NCBI GenBank assembly: GCA_964019415.1
Contig: OZ025879.1
Location: forward strand, 7,722,127-7,786,126
Length of the DNA stretch: 64,000 nt
Direction of reading: 5' to 3'
From: Ianthella basta
Taxonomy: Eukaryota; Porifera; Demospongiae; Verongiida; Ianthellidae
The position numbers and the translations under genes were made by a program. Positions 1 through 12,661 of this stretch are shown piece by piece. Each line of letters opens with the position of its first letter. Position 1 is the stretch's first letter. Below the pieces are notes generated by a model that saw nothing but the letters and a program-made list of their open reading frames with translations, made no database searches and had not been told where the DNA came from.

Positions 1-726
1 CACGTTTGGCATTAAGTTTGAGGTGAGTGGCTAATTGCTGAGCCGAAAGGCGAGGCAAGTAATCGTGATGCGCTGTCGTCCCCTGTTTGTATGTATGTAT
101 GTATGTACTGTATGTATGTATATATGTATATCCGTCCCAGTCAACCCAAGACACCTAGATTGTGCAATAGTCCGGTGTTCTCCGCAGGCGTTCATGACAA
201 CAAAATGCTCTACTTGGCCACCATCGGCCACGAAACTGCTCAACACTCCACTTCATCGATGCACGCTGCGTTCAGATTGTTGTTAACGTCGCCCATTGCT
301 TCAGCGAGGGCTACACGCCTGTTGGCCATTCTGCCATATTGGCTGACGTCATTTCTCCCTAGTGGCCGGGAACACTTTCACTGTTCACTCGGGTGAAGCG
401 ATAATGAGCACTGTGTTAGCACAGCACGGACAAGCTTCCCTGCGCAGCTCCAAATATGTCGGTGTGGATTGCCCAGCTGCCATCTAGTGCTTCGTCTGGC
501 TTGCTATCCCTTCTTTCTGCCAGCCAGTGAAAGCAGATTACAGTTCTATTGCCCAAAATGTACTTGCCCTGGCCGAGTTATGCTCATCCACTGTACATTA
601 CTGAAATAGCTGGCTATATACTTTCAAGCGAGGCTGGTTGCATTTTAATGTATGCCCTAGTATATGCAGTAGTCAGTGGTTGGGACCTGTTGTCATGGTG
701 ACATCAGTCCCCCACCCCAACCTTAG
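1..726. other. No supported gene; likely intron or flank of the PDZ gene
   Basis: No exon could be supported here. A GTAT-type microsatellite lies near 89-131. A stretch near 188-285 follows a plausible acceptor (ctccgcag) and reads GVHDNKMLYLATIGHE, which could be an exon of the same PDZ gene, but I see no matching donor and recognise no family. The end of the stretch (about 700-726) is the pyrimidine and AG context before the PDZ exon. Confidence 0.4.
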
Positions 727-930
727 GTGCGAGGCCGTGATGTACTTGTCAAGAGCCTGGAGCCAGACTGTCCGACTGCCTTGGCCAGCCAGCTGAAGGT
801 GGGGCAGTGTGTCCTGTCTGTGGAGGGCACACCAGTGCGGGGGCGGCCTCTGATGCAAGTGATGGAGCTGCTGCGGCACTGTGGGGCTTCTGCCGACCTG
901 GTGGTGGGCGGGGCCTCTGCTGCAGACTGA
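727..930 (+). CDS. Last exon of a PDZ-domain protein (5' part outside window)
   Basis: After an acceptor at 725-726 the frame reads VRGRDVLVKSLEPDCPTALA, continues through LKVGQCVLSVEGTPVRGRPL and ends with a stop at 928-930. The spacing of VKSLEPDCPTA, KVGQCVLSVEG and the helix MQVMELLRHC fits the second half of a PDZ domain (strand C, the GD/GQ turn, strand D-E, helix 2). The first half, with the GLGF-type carboxylate-binding loop, must lie in an upstream exon. PDZ domains bind C-terminal peptides of membrane proteins and organise scaffolds. The domain sits at the very C-terminus, followed by only a few residues. The gene is tail-to-tail with the death-domain receptor, about 260 bp stop to stop. 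Parent protein not identified. Confidence 0.65.
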   Translation: MRGRDVLVKSLEPDCPTALASQLKVGQCVLSVEGTPVRGRPLMQVMELLRHCGASADLVVGGASAAD

Positions 931-1192
931 GGGAGCTTACTTGCTTGACTGTAGCAAACTGTTTGTCTTGCAGTGACGCACATTTCACTTGTCATTTATT
1001 TGCATGCACAACAGAATCTGATGTAAAACCAACAAACACAAGTTGTATATAAAAGATATATACTCACGTATATACGTACGTATATACAAACATACAAATG
1101 TACTTATTTACACACACACATTGCACACTATAGAAAGGGGCACAAGATGTCTGTGTAGTGGAGCCCTGCAGGATCCACTAGGTGACTCAATT
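931..1192. other. Convergent 3' flanks (PDZ gene and Ig/death receptor)
   Basis: This 262-bp gap between two facing stop codons must hold both 3' UTRs. It contains an AT-rich stretch with alternating tata/gtac steps near 1047-1095 and a short CA run near 1111-1119. I see no clear polyadenylation hexamer. Confidence 0.4.
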
Positions 1193-1929
1193 TCAGGGAA
1201 CTGGCCTACTGTGCAAGTTGAGCTTGCGCTCAATGCTTGTGGCCACAGCTCCCAAGTTCTGTGTACGCAGTACATGAAGCAGGTTGGGCCAGGTCACATC
1301 CCGACCAGCATCAACCCAAGCTCCCAGTGCTTTGGTGCACTTCTTGTCTGCTCGTTCATTGCTGTCCTCAATAATGGCTGCATCTGTGCTGACGCCCAGT
1401 CCCACGGCCAGCACATACCACTTGGGGGCCATCTGAGGGATGTACTCCACCAGGAGCTGCAGCGACACTGCACGGGAGCACACAGACATTATTATATCAG
1501 TTGCTGTGCACCACATCTGTCCCACCTCATTACATGTATAGTAGAGATTATTAACAGATGTGGATGGGGGCACCTGTACACACATGCAGTATGCCTGAGT
1601 GTCGTGTTACCTGGGGGCAGGGGAGGGTCTGCTTGTCTGCATGGAGTCGGTACACTGGGTTCCTGGTGTACACCGGTGTTGCCACTTGGTTTCTGGTGTA
1701 CACCGGTGTTGCCACTTGGTTCCTGGTGTACACCGGTGTTGCCACTTGGTTCCTGGTGTACACCGGTGTTGCCACTTGGTTCCTGGTGTACACCAGTGTT
1801 GCCACTGGGTTGAGGTGCATTGCTGGCTTCAAACACAGTCTCAAGAGAATCATCGAAAGGCGTGTTGGAGCCTGTGCATCATGAAGACAGAGCTACTTAC
1901 ACTGCACAGACATGTAGCTGCACTGGCTT

Positions 1930-1993
<64 letters not shown>

Positions 1994-4900
1994 ACATGTC
2001 TCACTTTGCAATGAACTGTTCATAGAATTGCTCGGGTAGAAGTCTAAGAGGGACTCTGCAGTGCAGTAGGAGGTACGTGAGATGCAACCTTCCACTCCAC
2101 ATGCACCCTGGCCCTGCTATGTGTGTGACAGCGAACCTAATGTCTGCAGTGGCACTGCTCCGTTGGTAAGGGCTGTTCCTTCGTGCAAGGGCAGGAGGGG
2201 AGGGTCCGAGAACACAGGTGGCTGGCCGACTACAAGGGGAGCGGGTAGGACAGCACAAAAGTTGGTGCTTTCCTAATAGTCAATGATAGCTATCATGGAT
2301 CAAAGGGAACAAACCATCACTGATCAACGAGATAGGGAAAATTAAAAGGCCATGCTGGAGCTTGATTCTACAGCAATCACCTGCACTGTGATTAGCTCCG
2401 CATGCACAGCCCACCCTGGTGTGTGTGGTGGCAGGCCCTCTTACCTTCACGGTGACGACTTCCCTCTCCACGTATGATGACTGCCGTGTGGCCCAGGTCA
2501 CACGCACTGCTGCAGTTACTGGAGCGGGTTGACTGTCGCCGCAGCAGCCGCCGGCCCTCATCATCCGAAGGGGACCAGGGACTCTTCCTACCCCTAACCC
2601 TGGAGTAGACCACACCCACTGCCACACCCAGCAGGATCAGCAGCAGTACACCAATCACAACCATAGATCCAATGAACAAGTACAGGTAAAGCGTGCTACC
2701 ACCGTCAACGGCTGTGCTGCTGGATGGAGCCACTAGTATGGGTTCTCCAACGGACTGATAGCCCTTCACCTTGCTGTTGAACACTTGGCACTGGTAGTAA
2801 CCCGGTACTGATGTAGTCACATTAATCATGTAGACTGTGTTTTGCTCTGCCGTCACTTGATGGGCACTGAATGAGGAGCAGTTGCCACTGGGCAGTCCAT
2901 ACCTGTTTACCGCACAACAAGTGGTGCTGGCAGAGAGGTCACTGTCAGTGCACCGCTCCACCACTGTCAGAGTGCTGTAGCTGACCGAACACACCTGGTA
3001 GTTACTGTAGCCCTTTGAGGCACACACAAAGGATGCATTGTGGTGAAGTGCGCTGAGCTCCACTTTACCAGCTGTTTGCATCTGCAGTGGTTCAGCAAAG
3101 AATTCCTCCAATTCATTTCGCAAGTGAGCATTTGGGTCCACCTTCCGCTTGCCAGTCAGGGTGCCCAGCTCGTTGCTTGCCGTGCAGCGTATAATGACAT
3201 CTCTGTTTGCGATGTTGAACTCTTTTGCTACTCGGAAGGTCACGGTACGGTTGTCATTAGAGAAAGAAGCACACGGCTGCAGCTGCTCCCAGTCTGACAG
3301 GTTCCAGGAAAGGGAGTGGTAAGGAGGGTAGCCCTGAACAGGGCACTCCAAGGAGAAGTTGTATGAACCGTTTGTTAATCGGGGGGTTGTTATGCGCAGT
3401 GTGACTGTGTTGTCTGGATCTTTGGGACTTTGAACACTGCTACTTTCAAAGTGTAAGGACTCTGGGAGGGCAGAGCAGAAGGTGTGGGAGAGGTGGAGTG
3501 GGGTGGGGAGGGGTGAGGGAGGTGTGGGAGAGGTGTGAGTGGGGTGGGGAGGGGTGAGGGAGGTGTGGGAGAGGTGTGAGTGGGGTGGGGAGGGGTGAGG
3601 GAGGTGTGGGAGAGGGGTGAGGGAGGTGTGGGAGAGGTGGAGTGGGGTGGGGAGGGGTGAGGGAGGTGTGGGAGAGATGTGAGTGGGGTGGGGAGGGGTG
3701 AGGGAGGTGTGGGAGAGGTGGAGTGGGGTGGGGAGGGGTGAGGGAGGTGTGGGAGAGGTGGAGTGGGGTGGGGAGGGGTGAGGGAGGTGTGGGAGAGATG
3801 TGAGTGGGGTGGGGAGGGGTGGAGTGGGGTGGGGAGGTGTGAGGGAGGTGTGGGAGAGGGGTGAGGGAGGTGTGGGAGAGATGTGAGTGGGGTGGGGAGG
3901 GGTGAGGGAGGTGTGGGAGAGGTGGAGTGGGCTGGGGAGGTGTGAGGGAGGTGTGGGAGAGGGGTGAGGGAGGTGTTGGAGAGGTGGAGTGGGCTGGGGA
4001 GGGAGGTGGGGGAGGGTGAGGGAGGGAGGAGAGGTGGAGTGGGGTGGGGAGGTGGGGGAGTGGAGAGGTGGAGTGGGGTGGGAGGAGGTGAGGGAGGTGT
4101 GGAGAGGTGAGGGAGGTGTGGGAGAGGTGGAGTGGGGTGGGGAGGGGTGAGGGAGGTGTGGTGGAGGTGGAGTGGGGTGGGGAGGGGTGGGAGAGGTGGA
4201 GTGGGGTGGGGAGGGGTGAGGGAGGTGTGGGAGAGGTGGAGTGGGGTGGGAATAGGGTTGGGGAGGGGTGAGAGGTGTGGGAGAGGTGTGAGTGGGGTGG
4301 GGAGGGGTGAGGGAGGTGTGGGAGAGGTGGAGTGGGGTGGGGAGGGGTGAGGGAGGTGTGGGAGAGGTGGAGTGGGGTGGGGATAGGGCGGCTGGGGTGT
4401 GGTGGGGGATGGTGGGTAGGTTGGGGTGGGGACTCAAGGTTCTCTGTATTTAGCTACTGCACTTAAAGATGGCATCCACTAGTCTAGCCCTGTACATCCA
4501 TGCCGATTTTATATGGGGAAATAGGTCCGACACAATGCCATACATCAAGATGCGCTGGTTGCTGCCCACAGTGTGGGCTGCAGTGGGACACAACTTGATG
4601 CCCGGCAATGTGCCAGCCCCACCCCCTCTGCCCGGCAATGTGCCAGCCCCACCCCCTCTGCCCGGCAATGTGCCAGCCCCACCCCCTCTATAAGTAGCTT
4701 GGTCCATTGGATGCCTGCAGCTACCACTAGCCACACCCACTAGCCACACCCACCACTAATGACAGACCATCCTTGGGCAGAGCACTATATATGGACTGCT
4801 GTCAGTATAAGATGCAACCTTGGGGAATTCCCTGTGGTTGACTTGGAATGCTACAGCTGACACACAGGATCATGCCACACACGACTGTCTGGCATGCAGT

Positions 4901-5669
4901 GGTCACCCACCAAATTTTGCGACTGCAGTGATGTTGAACAGGAGGTAGCTGTCTACCGCCTCTTGTCGCTGGCAGACCACGCATAAGCCCTGGTGAGTAT
5001 GAGACATGTTCCAAAGCATGAGATGTGTGTTGTTCTGTGTGCTTCCAAGACCCGGCAGATGGAGGTATGATTGTATCCACAGTCGGCGACAGCTAGTCAG
5101 TGGTGGAGTACAGGGGCAGTGGAAAGTGACGTTAAAGCCCTCCACAGCGTACACTGGTGTTACGAACTCAGGCCCCACTTCACAAGTTGGACTCGACCCT
5201 GTAGGGGATGGGGGAACATGTGAGCATGTACTTCACTCTACACACCAACACTGCCCGACACACACAGGGAATGGTTGGGACTGCAATGCACACAAGATGG
5301 GCACTCGAAACTGAACTAACCACAACACACAAGGTGACGTTCACACTGGAAATAAGTGATCATCGCCACAGGGGAGGGCAGGCGCTTACTTAGCTACGTC
5401 ACTCACATAGTGCGCCGAAGGCCCGCTTTACGCTCGACACAGTAACGTGTCTCAATAACTCAATAACTGCACAGCTTACCTCCACTTGTCCGCGAGCCGT
5501 TAAAAGGCCGGGCCCGTGGCTCGATGTTCTGCGGCTGCAAGTCGCTGGCCCAAGCTGAGATCGGAGCAGTCAGGAACAACAACGACAGAACCTTCAGGGG
5601 CGCTAGCCATTGCCGGCGCGGCTGCGGGCGGGCGGAGAGAGGAGCGCGCCTGGCCCCACAGGTGTCCAT
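1193..5669 (-). CDS. Ig-like single-pass receptor with cytoplasmic death domain
   Basis: Five exons, joined by consensus splice sites with phase 1 at every junction: 5480-5669, 4911-5198, 2445-3461, 1611-1871 and 1193-1467, giving about 676 aa. The start at 5667-5669 leads into a signal peptide (LKVLSLLFLTAPISAWA); an upstream in-frame ATG at 5768 would only add a non-hydrophobic leader. An Ig-like segment follows (VTPVYAVEGFNVTFHC), then a C2-type Ig domain with the C...W...C pattern (LECPVQG, LSWNLSD, VIIRCTASNELG), a cysteine-rich region, and another Ig-like stretch ending GYYQCQVFNSK. Many NxS/T sites are present. A transmembrane helix lies near residues 417-445, followed by a basic stop-transfer (SRVRGRK). 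Five in-frame decapeptide repeats precede a C-terminal death domain (about 590-670) with the W..LA..LG core, the ALGAWVD helix and a TWPNLLHVL helix. No ZU5, TIR or kinase domain is seen. Inferred role: surface recognition coupled to death-fold adaptor signalling. Subfamily and ligand are unknown. Confidence 0.83.
1663..1812 (-). repeat. Coding 30-bp minisatellite, 5 units, in the receptor gene
   Basis: Five 30-bp units lie inside exon 4 of the Ig/death receptor and stay in frame, encoding the decapeptide SGNTGVHQEP (one copy has K for E). They form most of the cytoplasmic linker between membrane and death domain. Confidence 0.85.
1931..1992. repeat. (TG)n microsatellite in an intron of the receptor gene
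   Basis: About 30 uninterrupted TG dinucleotides, in the intron between exons 3 and 4 of the Ig/death receptor. The remainder of this intron, to 2444, shows no exon I could support, and the phases of the flanking exons match without one. Confidence 0.95.
3480..4392. repeat. G-rich minisatellite (about 40 bp unit) in receptor intron 2
   Basis: About 0.9 kb of degenerate tandem units built from GTGAGGGAGGTGTGGGAG and GTGGAGTGGGGTGGGGAG. On the gene (minus) strand it is C/T-rich, nearly free of AG, and runs directly into the acceptor of exon 3 at 3462. It generates a long proline/serine-rich false reading frame. Confidence 0.9.
4600..4690. repeat. 30-bp tandem repeat, 3 units, intronic
   Basis: Three nearly perfect units beginning CCCGGCAATGTGCCAGCCCC, in the same receptor intron as the G-rich minisatellite. 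They could be translated as LPGNVPAPPP, but no splice sites support an exon here. The rest of 4393-4910 shows no gene. Confidence 0.85.
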
Positions 5670-5843
5670 ACTGTGTTTCCTGTATCTTATTACAAGTTTT
5701 CCTGGGGGCTGGGTCATTGTATATAGCTCGGGCGTGGCTAGCTCATTGAGGCCACAGCGCCCACGCACGAATGGTTTCCACCTAACTCTTATAGCGGCTG
5801 GAGACGCAGCGTGACGGGGAATAATTGTGGGCGGGGCCTAAAA
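5670..5843. promoter_or_regulatory. Bidirectional promoter region, Ig/death receptor and PPIL3
   Basis: Only 174 bp separate the start codons of two divergent genes, so both 5' UTRs and core promoters must share this segment. It is GC-rich at the ends. I see no convincing TATA box. Confidence 0.65.
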
Positions 5844-7440
5844 ATGGTGGGTTGAGCGGCAGAAAACGTTTTCGCATGCATTCACTCCATTCAATCTCTC
5901 CTTCTCCTTCAGTCGGTCACTCTACACACGGACTTGGGCGACATCAAACTGGAACTCCATTGCGATCTAGTGCCCAAGGCCTGCGAGGTTAGTAGCGGCC
6001 GACAAGCGATGAAGAATACATGAAAGATGTACTTTATAGGGCCACCCGAGTGTTAGGCTTTGGCTAAATTGCATGTGGTTAGTTACAGTGATTAATTGCG
6101 TGGGTGGTAGTACTATGGTCAGGGTGTCCCACTTGTGATGTGCCAGCCTGCACAGTTGGATGCAGACGTAAGTTTACTTACCATTGAATAGCTGTGAGGC
6201 CATTGCACACACAAGTCTATGTTCCTATCTCCAATCCAAGGATCATACATCAAATAGGAGTGTCACTTCTTTGCTGGTTGGAATACCACCCCCCTCCCAC
6301 CACAGTCCTCTAGTTACTAAAGCTATTCTACTTGATTGTGCAGAATTTTTTAGCTCTGTGTGCCAGTGGATACTACACCGACAGTCTTTTCCATCGGTCA
6401 GTGCAAGTTCTTGGTCTAGCACTTACTCTACCCATTTCCTCACGTACTTCCCCCCCCCCCCCCCATGCACAGCAACATCAAAGGCTTCATGGTGCAGACT
6501 GGAGACCCCACAGGTGAATGTGGATGTAGGACTTTAGGCAGCCAGTGTTGGCTAGTGTGCATGGTGGTGTGTGCTGTGCTGCACAGGGACAGGCAAAGGA
6601 GGGCAGAGCATCTGGGGGCGCAAGTTTCAAGATGAGTTTCATGACTCTCTCAAGGTATGTGGCCACTGGACACCGGTTGTCTGCAATCTGAACGACTGTT
6701 GGTCTCTGTGCACCTCCTAGCACACAGGGCGAGGGATAGTGTCTATGGCCAACAGTGGAGCAGACAGCAATGGATCTCAGTTCTTCATCACTTACAGTCG
6801 ACAAGCCCACCTTGACTCCAAGTACACTGTGTTTGCAAGGTGGGCAGCTTCACTAACACTGCATACCACCAGTGTCCACCAGTGTCCACCACACACTGCA
6901 TACCACCAGTGTCCACCAGTGTCCACCACACACTGCATACCACCAGTGTCCACCAGTGTCCACCACACACTGCATACCACCAGTGTCCACCAGTGTCCAC
7001 CACACACTGCATACCACCAGTGTCCACCAGTGTCCACCACACACTGCATACCACCAGTGTCCACCAGTGTCCACCACACACTGCATACCACCAGTGTCCA
7101 CCAGTGTCCACCACACACTGCATACCACCAGTGTCCACCAGTGTCCACCACACACTGCATACCACCAGTGTCCACCTCACACTGCATACCACCAGTGTCC
7201 ACCACACACTGCGTACCACCAGTGTCCACCACGCACTGCATACCACCAGTGTCCACTCCACTTCATGCATTCCATTTCCATTCATGTAACCAGTCACACT
7301 TCCATTCCAGAGTTATTGATGGCTTTGATACTCTGGACGATTTGGAGAAGGTCCCAGTGGAAGAGAAGACCTTCCGCCCAACGACAGAGATCCGCATAAG
7401 GCGGGTCACCATACATGCCAACCCTTTAGCAGACACGTAG
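5844..7440 (+). CDS. PPIL3: Cyclophilin-type peptidyl-prolyl isomerase PPIL3
   Basis: Seven exons give 162 aa (human protein is about 161): 5844-5846, 5913-5987, 6344-6396, 6473-6513, 6587-6654, 6721-6839 and 7311-7440. The protein opens [18 protein letters not shown], continues [11 protein letters not shown], contains the cyclophilin core [36 protein letters not shown] and [10 protein letters not shown], and ends [11 protein letters not shown]. The family catalyses cis-trans isomerisation of prolyl bonds, and PPIL3 is a spliceosome-associated cyclophilin. Catalytic Arg and Gln/Phe positions appear retained (FHR, GFMVQ, SQFFI). Oddities: the start codon is alone in the first coding exon, directly followed by a 66-bp intron, and the last intron holds a 33-bp minisatellite. 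An ATTAAA signal lies at 7493-7498. Confidence 0.95.
6857..7256. repeat. 33-bp minisatellite in the last PPIL3 intron
   Basis: About 12 units of CACTGCATACCACCAGTGTC plus a second copy of the CACCAGTGTC block, nearly identical to each other, with a shorter variant at the 3' end. The array starts within 20 bases of the donor at 6840. It produces false reading frames in all frames. Confidence 0.95.
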
Positions 7441-7492
7441 CACTGCTCCACCTCAGCAGCCACACACACACTTCATGTTTACTGTAATTCTC

Positions 7493-7498
7493 ATTAAA
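7493..7498 (+). terminator. ATTAAA polyadenylation signal of PPIL3
   Basis: The common variant hexamer ATTAAA lies 53 bp after the PPIL3 stop and is followed by a TG-rich stretch. The facing FIRRM stop is at 7567-7569, so the two 3' UTRs must nearly touch or overlap. Confidence 0.6.
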
Positions 7499-7566
7499 TT
7501 TGTTGAATGCACATGAATGAATGGACAATCAACCAACCACCACACAACCTGCATGGCCGGGTGAGG

Positions 7567-12661
<5,095 letters not shown>

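Follow-up and report, generated by a model that had tools for sequence, protein, structure and literature searches.

Death-domain receptors generally work by clustering followed by the recruitment of further proteins. Those of the TNF-receptor type are membrane receptors with a cytoplasmic death domain and cysteine-rich TNFR repeats on the outside. Here we describe a candidate receptor of a different build, encoded on the minus strand of a 64,000-nucleotide stretch of DNA from the sponge Ianthella basta (positions 7,722,127-7,786,126 of contig OZ025879.1, C12 in our numbering; we call this whole stretch the window). The predicted protein would comprise a signal peptide, immunoglobulin (Ig)-like domains, two of which have some support, a further Cys-rich unit, one membrane helix, a short linker of low complexity and, at the C-terminus, a death domain. 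With moderate confidence we read the gene as a type I Ig-membrane-death receptor, single-copy as far as searched, that was made by exon shuffling. It differs from the TNF-receptor type in having Ig-like domains outside, and a Pfam scan found no TNFR match, which places it outside that class.

According to the accessible sections of PMC8358048, UNC5 receptors are type I, with extracellular Ig domains and a cytoplasmic death domain, and UNC5B also carries two thrombospondin domains as well as ZU5 and UPA modules. Folding of ZU5 onto the death domain is proposed in the same sections to suppress killing by UNC5B, the ZU5-deleted form being constitutively open. The window protein has Ig-like domains outside, a membrane helix and a death domain inside in the same order as UNC5, yet scanning the full-length protein against Pfam gave no match to thrombospondin or ZU5, which sets it apart from the UNC5 family. 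The window is likewise absent from the list of Pfam ZU5 matches in the genome (44 matches of 51 candidates). Sponge TLR-like receptors, in the available text of PMC6208332 and PMC12909245, combine Ig domains outside with a TIR domain inside, and MyD88 is the named adaptor. The window receptor holds a death domain instead and has no TIR match in Pfam, so it does not belong with the IL-1R/TLR-like receptors; because its death domain forms part of the receptor, a MyD88-like step would be unneeded. An earlier note on this DNA, made from the sequence alone, had described the gene as lacking ZU5 and TIR, and the Pfam scan agrees with it.

The nearest pairings in print, as far as the excerpted sources go, are an Ig and CARD gene of Dysidea avara and oyster proteins that combine Ig repeats with a DED. 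The D. avara gene (TR154561_c0_g1), which the accessible part of PMC6208332 lists as up-regulated after microbial challenge, pairs Ig domains with a death-fold domain as here, that domain being a CARD and not a death domain. Proteins of the oyster C. gigas appear in the available part of PMC8195603 with HEPN, immunoglobulin repeats and DED-TRADD-N; they too join Ig repeats to a death-fold domain, and differ by a DED with TRADD-N, by HEPN and WD40 or cGAS parts, and in that the text available shows them without a membrane receptor layout. Within the Ianthella genome itself, two candidate genes (L046 and L049) have a membrane receptor layout that ends in a related death domain, with the difference that their ectodomain is SRCR and that a ZU5-like block is present. 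MALT1 and the other type 1 paracaspases are cytosolic. The sections of PMC5978004 at hand give these proteins an N-terminal death domain, Ig domains and a paracaspase domain after them; death domain and Ig thus occur in one protein as in the window gene, while the N-terminal position of the death domain and the paracaspase domain distinguish them. Our search of the open-access literature returned no Ig-membrane-death receptor recognisable from titles and abstract starts. The suggestion that this Ig-to-death receptor is undescribed therefore holds for the layout in the literature searched, but pairings of Ig with other death-fold domains have been published, judging from the partial texts of PMC6208332 and PMC8195603.

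Gene model and death domain

The gene occupies window positions 1193-5669, and its five exons splice into a coding sequence of 2031 nt for a protein of 676 aa (Table 1). The four introns all have GT-AG borders and are in phase 1, with donors GTAAGC, GTGGGT, GTAAGA and GTAACA, and the 676 codons run without stop or frameshift across four clean splice junctions. The observation of a five-exon chain with matching phases and Ig-like, membrane and death parts, as put forward in the earlier note, is confirmed at the level of sequence. In a codon-usage test, which is modest and partly circular and drew its 4202 training codons from frames of this genome that encode death-domain, Ig, SRCR and related sequences, the annotated frame came out ahead of the other five in exons 2, 3 and 5 (0.097, 0.143 and 0.192). 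Random 270-nt pieces had their 95% point at 0.114, which leaves exon 2 unremarkable when taken alone, and one frame of intron 4 reached 0.14.

Exon 4, the weakest part of the chain, consists mostly of a 30-bp repeat and is open in a second frame as well. It is 261 nt long with phase 1 on either side, exon 3 can be joined to exon 5 in frame too, and the receptor reading is independent of exon 4. The repeat unit itself preserves the reading frame, and the length of the linker may for this reason differ among individuals.

Exon 5 alone matches Pfam Death (PF00531) with 23.4 bits against a cut-off of 22.6, covering profile positions 4-85 of 86. Genome searches, here and below, covered 209 Mb in 96 contigs. 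With exon 5 as query they gave 138 candidates, of which at least 118, exon 5 counted among them, had E<=1, and at least 40 besides exon 5 had E<0.001; the closest listed relative is 42% identical (E 2.8e-14). When 20 death domains of this type were aligned, W, L, K and W positions were invariant, and Pfam Death recognises 16 of the 20 at E<=0.01. A profile of this family, compared with the sequences of solved structures, found 22 at E<=1. Sixteen of these, which hold the top places, are THOC1, RIPK1, CRADD, PIDD, TRADD or FADD, and the other six are unrelated chains at E 0.33-0.89. One THOC1 chain, which we take to be a death domain, was alone below 0.001 (0.00087), and RIPK1 came next at 0.0079. 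Exon 5 as a single sequence gave IL-27 matches in the PDB at chance level (E 1.1), and the family profile alone was informative here. On the strength of the Pfam match, the genome relatives and the solved death domains found by the profile, the homology of exon 5 to death domains goes beyond chance, and the C-terminal death domain of the earlier note stands. A single-sequence AlphaFold2 model of exon 5 contained three helices and two strands at a low mean predicted local distance difference test score (pLDDT) of 53.3.

The boundary of exon 5 recurs among its relatives. An in-frame phase-1 AG|TG acceptor was found at the aligned start, or at most 35 nt before it, in 15 of 20 loci with the window counted, a count that has no chance control, that includes some near-identical copies and in which two loci (L028 and L029) look fortuitous. 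Four further exons, in L046-L049, have phase-1 AG sites, but these are not AG|TG. The recurring acceptor lends moderate independent support to the exon boundary.

Ectodomain and membrane helix

The membrane helix is the sole segment of the protein that exceeds 1.6 on the Kyte-Doolittle scale. N-glycosylation sequons are concentrated before it (12 of 13, in 375 residues), with a single one in the 231 residues after it, and the basic motif RVRGRK lies on its inner side. The one membrane helix of the earlier note is retained on this evidence. Both the helix and the sidedness fit a type I single-pass layout, to which exon 1 would contribute a putative signal peptide recognised by eye.

For the extracellular units, a hidden Markov model (HMM) was built from 20 I-set domains of the same genome and 1000 shuffles were scored per unit. 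Ig3 reached 12.2 bits, with none of the shuffles as good, and Ig2 reached 7.0 bits, with 1 of 1000 as good; as controls, the death domain scored -2.8 bits (598 of 1000 shuffles) and the cytoplasmic linker -4.2 bits (700 of 1000). Over 563 open reading frames (ORFs) in the window, the exon 3 ORF ranked first with 8.9 bits. Alignment by hhalign gave P 0.00012 and a probability of 55% for Ig3, over 27 columns only, P 0.0069 and 5.6% for Ig2 over 70 columns, and P 0.0039 and 8.5% for Ig1 over 23 columns; the death-domain control had P 0.86. NCBIfam returned nothing for Ig2 and Ig3, and the ectodomain found nothing significant among PDB sequences (best E 0.11). For the Ig segment of exon 3, a single-sequence model had a mean pLDDT of 36.2, which is low and uninformative. 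The Ig-like ectodomain proposed for this protein thus appears supported for Ig3 and weakly supported for Ig2, and it is not supported for Ig1.

Table 1. Features of the candidate receptor gene (window positions; protein residues where given) and of two related loci (contig positions)
Feature	Position	Strand	Basis or remark
Exon 1: start codon, N-terminus, hydrophobic signal-peptide-like stretch (~5544-5609)	5480-5669	-	signal peptide by eye
Exon 2: Cys-rich extracellular unit (Ig1); Ig fold without sequence support	4911-5198	-	
Exon 3: Ig2, Ig3, membrane helix, juxtamembrane segment	2445-3461	-	
Exon 4: cytoplasmic linker of low complexity, flanked by phase-1 introns, in-frame skipping possible	1611-1871	-	
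Exon 5: C-terminal death-domain exon and stop	1193-1467	-	stop at 1193-1195
Ig2, residues 161-268, weakly supported	3136-3459	-	Ig HMM, Pfam Ig_3, hhalign
Ig3, residues 275-410, supported	2710-3117	-	Ig HMM, hhalign
Single membrane helix, ~residues 417-443, then basic residues	2611-2691	-	Kyte-Doolittle
Death domain, residues 588-667	1223-1462	-	Pfam Death
5.3 tandem copies of a 30-bp unit that encodes the PSGNTGVHQE repeat in exon 4	1653-1811		
Minisatellite within intron 2, outside the protein	3480-4383		GC-rich
AATAAA, candidate polyadenylation signal	995-1000	-	starts at 1000, ~190 bases past the stop
L046, candidate SRCR-membrane-ZU5-like-death receptor gene	C7:6376500-6386400	-	
L049, candidate SRCR-membrane-ZU5-like-death receptor gene	C4:2203500-2213400	-	

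Origin, mode of action and alternative explanations

The Ianthella genome is rich in both parts of the protein, with 437 first-look Death candidates and 1638 Ig_3 candidates; its large Ig, ZU5-like and death-domain sets, together with SRCR receptors, would suit a sponge. The death domain of exon 5 is no isolated oddity in it. Domains of this type end many other genes, in two cases after SRCR, membrane and ZU5-like parts, and the reading of the earlier note needs to be broadened accordingly. Its interpretation is in sum partly supported. Among the relatives aligned with exon 5, 14 of 19 are on contig C2, where the death-domain copies are preceded by ORFs that look coiled-coil-like by eye; the sequence ahead of 20 related death domains was scanned for hydrophobic stretches, and the filtered ORFs of 17 of these regions were examined. 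The extracellular part has a different distribution. Exon 3 matched itself alone in the genome, exon 2 matched itself and two places at E 0.18-0.20, neither search giving a paralogue, and a scan of bacterial and archaeal contigs with the Ig/membrane exon gave 28 pattern matches and no relative.

A phase-1 terminal death-domain exon of the kind common in this genome probably landed, by shuffling, behind an Ig-membrane gene. In the resulting receptor, a ligand or contact with a neighbouring cell would cluster the ectodomains, and clustering would bring the tethered death domains together so that cytosolic death-domain proteins may be recruited. The first candidates for such partners would be the coiled-coil-like death-domain genes on C2, where most of the closest relatives of exon 5 are found. 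Control could be exerted through clustering or through inclusion of the exon 4 linker, rather than through the ZU5 lock proposed for UNC5; as the protein has no ZU5, it could not be held shut in the way proposed for UNC5B.

Several results weigh against this receptor. The joining of all exons into one mRNA is taken from the gene model and not from RNA, and in the codon-usage test the annotated frame was not top in exons 1 and 4. Pfam Death reaches 18.2 bits in the scan of the whole protein, which is below the cut-off of 22.6, and the low-confidence model of exon 5 is not six-helical. In the ectodomain, Ig1 scored -0.3 bits with the Ig HMM and 124 of 1000 shuffles were as good, Pfam had no match for Ig1 or Ig3, and Pfam Ig_3 on Ig2 gave 18.3 bits, below the cut-off of 30. 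Two other ORFs of the window reached 8.2 and 6.9 bits with the Ig HMM, and the top one of 825 ORFs near related death domains was SRCR-like with 9.2 bits. Since unrelated ORFs score up to this value, the 7.0 bits of Ig2 are unspecific, while Ig3 stands out. No sister Ig-membrane-death copy came up for comparison either: pairing the Death and Ig lists by eye (best 150 of 437 for Death, 118 of 138 for the exon 5 query, 150 of 1638 for Ig_3 and 150 of 1470 for I-set) gave no pair within ~80 kb, although sister copies with weak Ig domains could escape such pairing because neither Ig list contains the window gene.

One alternative is that the locus makes two products. The first would be an Ig-membrane adhesion or decoy receptor that ends soon after exon 3, and exons 4 and 5 would supply the death domain as a distinct or alternatively spliced product. 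Beyond the exon 3 donor there is a short tail only, with a stop near 2392, so an intron-retaining form would be a receptor without a death domain; the coding signal of exon 4 is, moreover, weak. We nevertheless consider two products unlikely, as the phase-1 acceptor of exon 5, of a kind common to its relatives, needs an upstream exon, every junction is compatible in phase, and no other minus-strand candidate exon was seen between the flanking PDZ and cyclophilin genes in a search that was not exhaustive. Shared descent with UNC5 would explain the common order of Ig, membrane helix and death domain differently. The gene would then be a degenerate UNC5-type netrin receptor that kept these parts and lost its thrombospondin repeats and ZU5/UPA, and the presence in this genome of SRCR-membrane-ZU5-like-death genes with related death domains makes a ZU5 ancestor conceivable. 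This seems to us quite unlikely, given that the protein has no match to ZU5 or thrombospondin, that matches to the ZU5-like block on the strand of the gene are no better than E 0.05, and that the closest death domains (14 of 19 aligned) come mostly from the C2 array, behind ORFs that by eye are coiled-coil-like rather than ZU5-like. The gene could also be decaying or unexpressed, either a once-working receptor or a chance chain of exons with no product today, as might be suggested by the lack of a second copy in our searches, the low scores of the Ig units and the minisatellites in intron 2 and exon 4. Against such decay stand the uninterrupted 676 codons with their four clean junctions, the top rank of the annotated frame in exons 2, 3 and 5 and the in-frame repeat unit, and we regard it as very improbable.

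If the gene is transcribed as read, into a single Ig-membrane-death receptor, it would represent a receptor layout not found in the literature searched, in which Ig recognition is wired straight to the death-fold network. A wider and more tentative idea, which we consider less likely than not, is a combinatorial system in which one terminal phase-1 death-domain exon was shuffled onto Ig and SRCR ectodomains and onto intracellular coiled-coil genes. The receptors would then signal directly into a common death-domain network with no need of TIR adaptors, and the Ig member would do so without a ZU5 brake. Were this true, the window gene together with the SRCR loci would show an early-branching animal multiplying its receptor outputs by swapping one terminal exon. 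A gene transcribed as read would also provide a tangible example with which to ask if death domains serve allorecognition or the sensing of microbes in animals of this kind.

Related loci and other features of the window

At the SRCR loci, the death-domain exon of L046 and L049 is preceded by SRCR stretches, a membrane stretch and a further block; L048, a third locus, includes both block and death domain, and no SRCR exon was seen there. Pfam SRCR matches reached 82.1 and 58.5 bits in L046 and 25.6 bits in L049, the latter slightly below the cut-off of 26.1. Phases agree in L046 at the candidate splice sites from SRCR2a to SRCR2b, from SRCR2b to the membrane exon, from there to the block, and at the final junction leading to the death domain. 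The sole donor found for the first SRCR exon of L046 is out of phase, and no donor was found for the block. The death exon of L046 has 15.1 bits in Pfam, below the cut-off; exon 5 matches it at E 4.5e-7 genome-wide (36% over 91 residues) and matches that of L049 at E 3.8e-6.

At least 150 genomic matches to the middle block of L046 were counted (218 candidates, of which 150 were scored), which amounts to a large expansion; the block itself found neither a Pfam match nor a solved relative. We call it ZU5-like because several of its genome matches overlap Pfam ZU5 hits (for example C21 near 286,100 and C13 near 7,262,100). The matches are chiefly on C9 at 2.8-7.4 Mb and on C1, and none of the C9 copies is among the 44 Pfam ZU5 matches listed. 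When the parts of the SRCR receptors were compared with window positions 1-6500, the sole strong match was the death domain (E 3.7e-12, in a small database). The block and the other parts gave nothing better than E 0.05 on the strand of the gene in this region. A single match of the block, at E 0.002, fell on the opposite strand at 118-264, where the block profile scores -1.8 bits.

The closest relatives of exon 5 among the matches listed form an array on C2 at 12.3-13.1 Mb (L030-L042 in part), in which coiled-coil-like ORFs are combined with a C-terminal death-domain exon. Locus L037 has a 1050-residue open frame on the sense strand at 5051-8200, upstream of a death-domain exon, that by eye is retroelement-like with a reverse transcriptase.

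In the window, the receptor gene is flanked by two plus-strand genes. One ends in a PDZ domain (727-930, Pfam 23.8 bits), and the other is a cyclophilin gene (6721-6840, 49.7 bits, and 7309-7437, 18.4 bits, below the cut-off). Further on, an open frame on the minus strand at 8152-8763 matches DUF4487 (39.4 bits) and is part of another gene. Positions 30559-63983 are taken up by a satellite of ~33 kb, mainly of 10-, 20- and 21-bp units, that reaches the window end; contig C12 ends ~29 kb beyond this point, and the satellite is possibly subtelomeric. At the window start, positions 22-396 resemble in translation a stretch on a different contig (L045, sense strand, ~7173-7526), which by eye points to an interspersed repeat.

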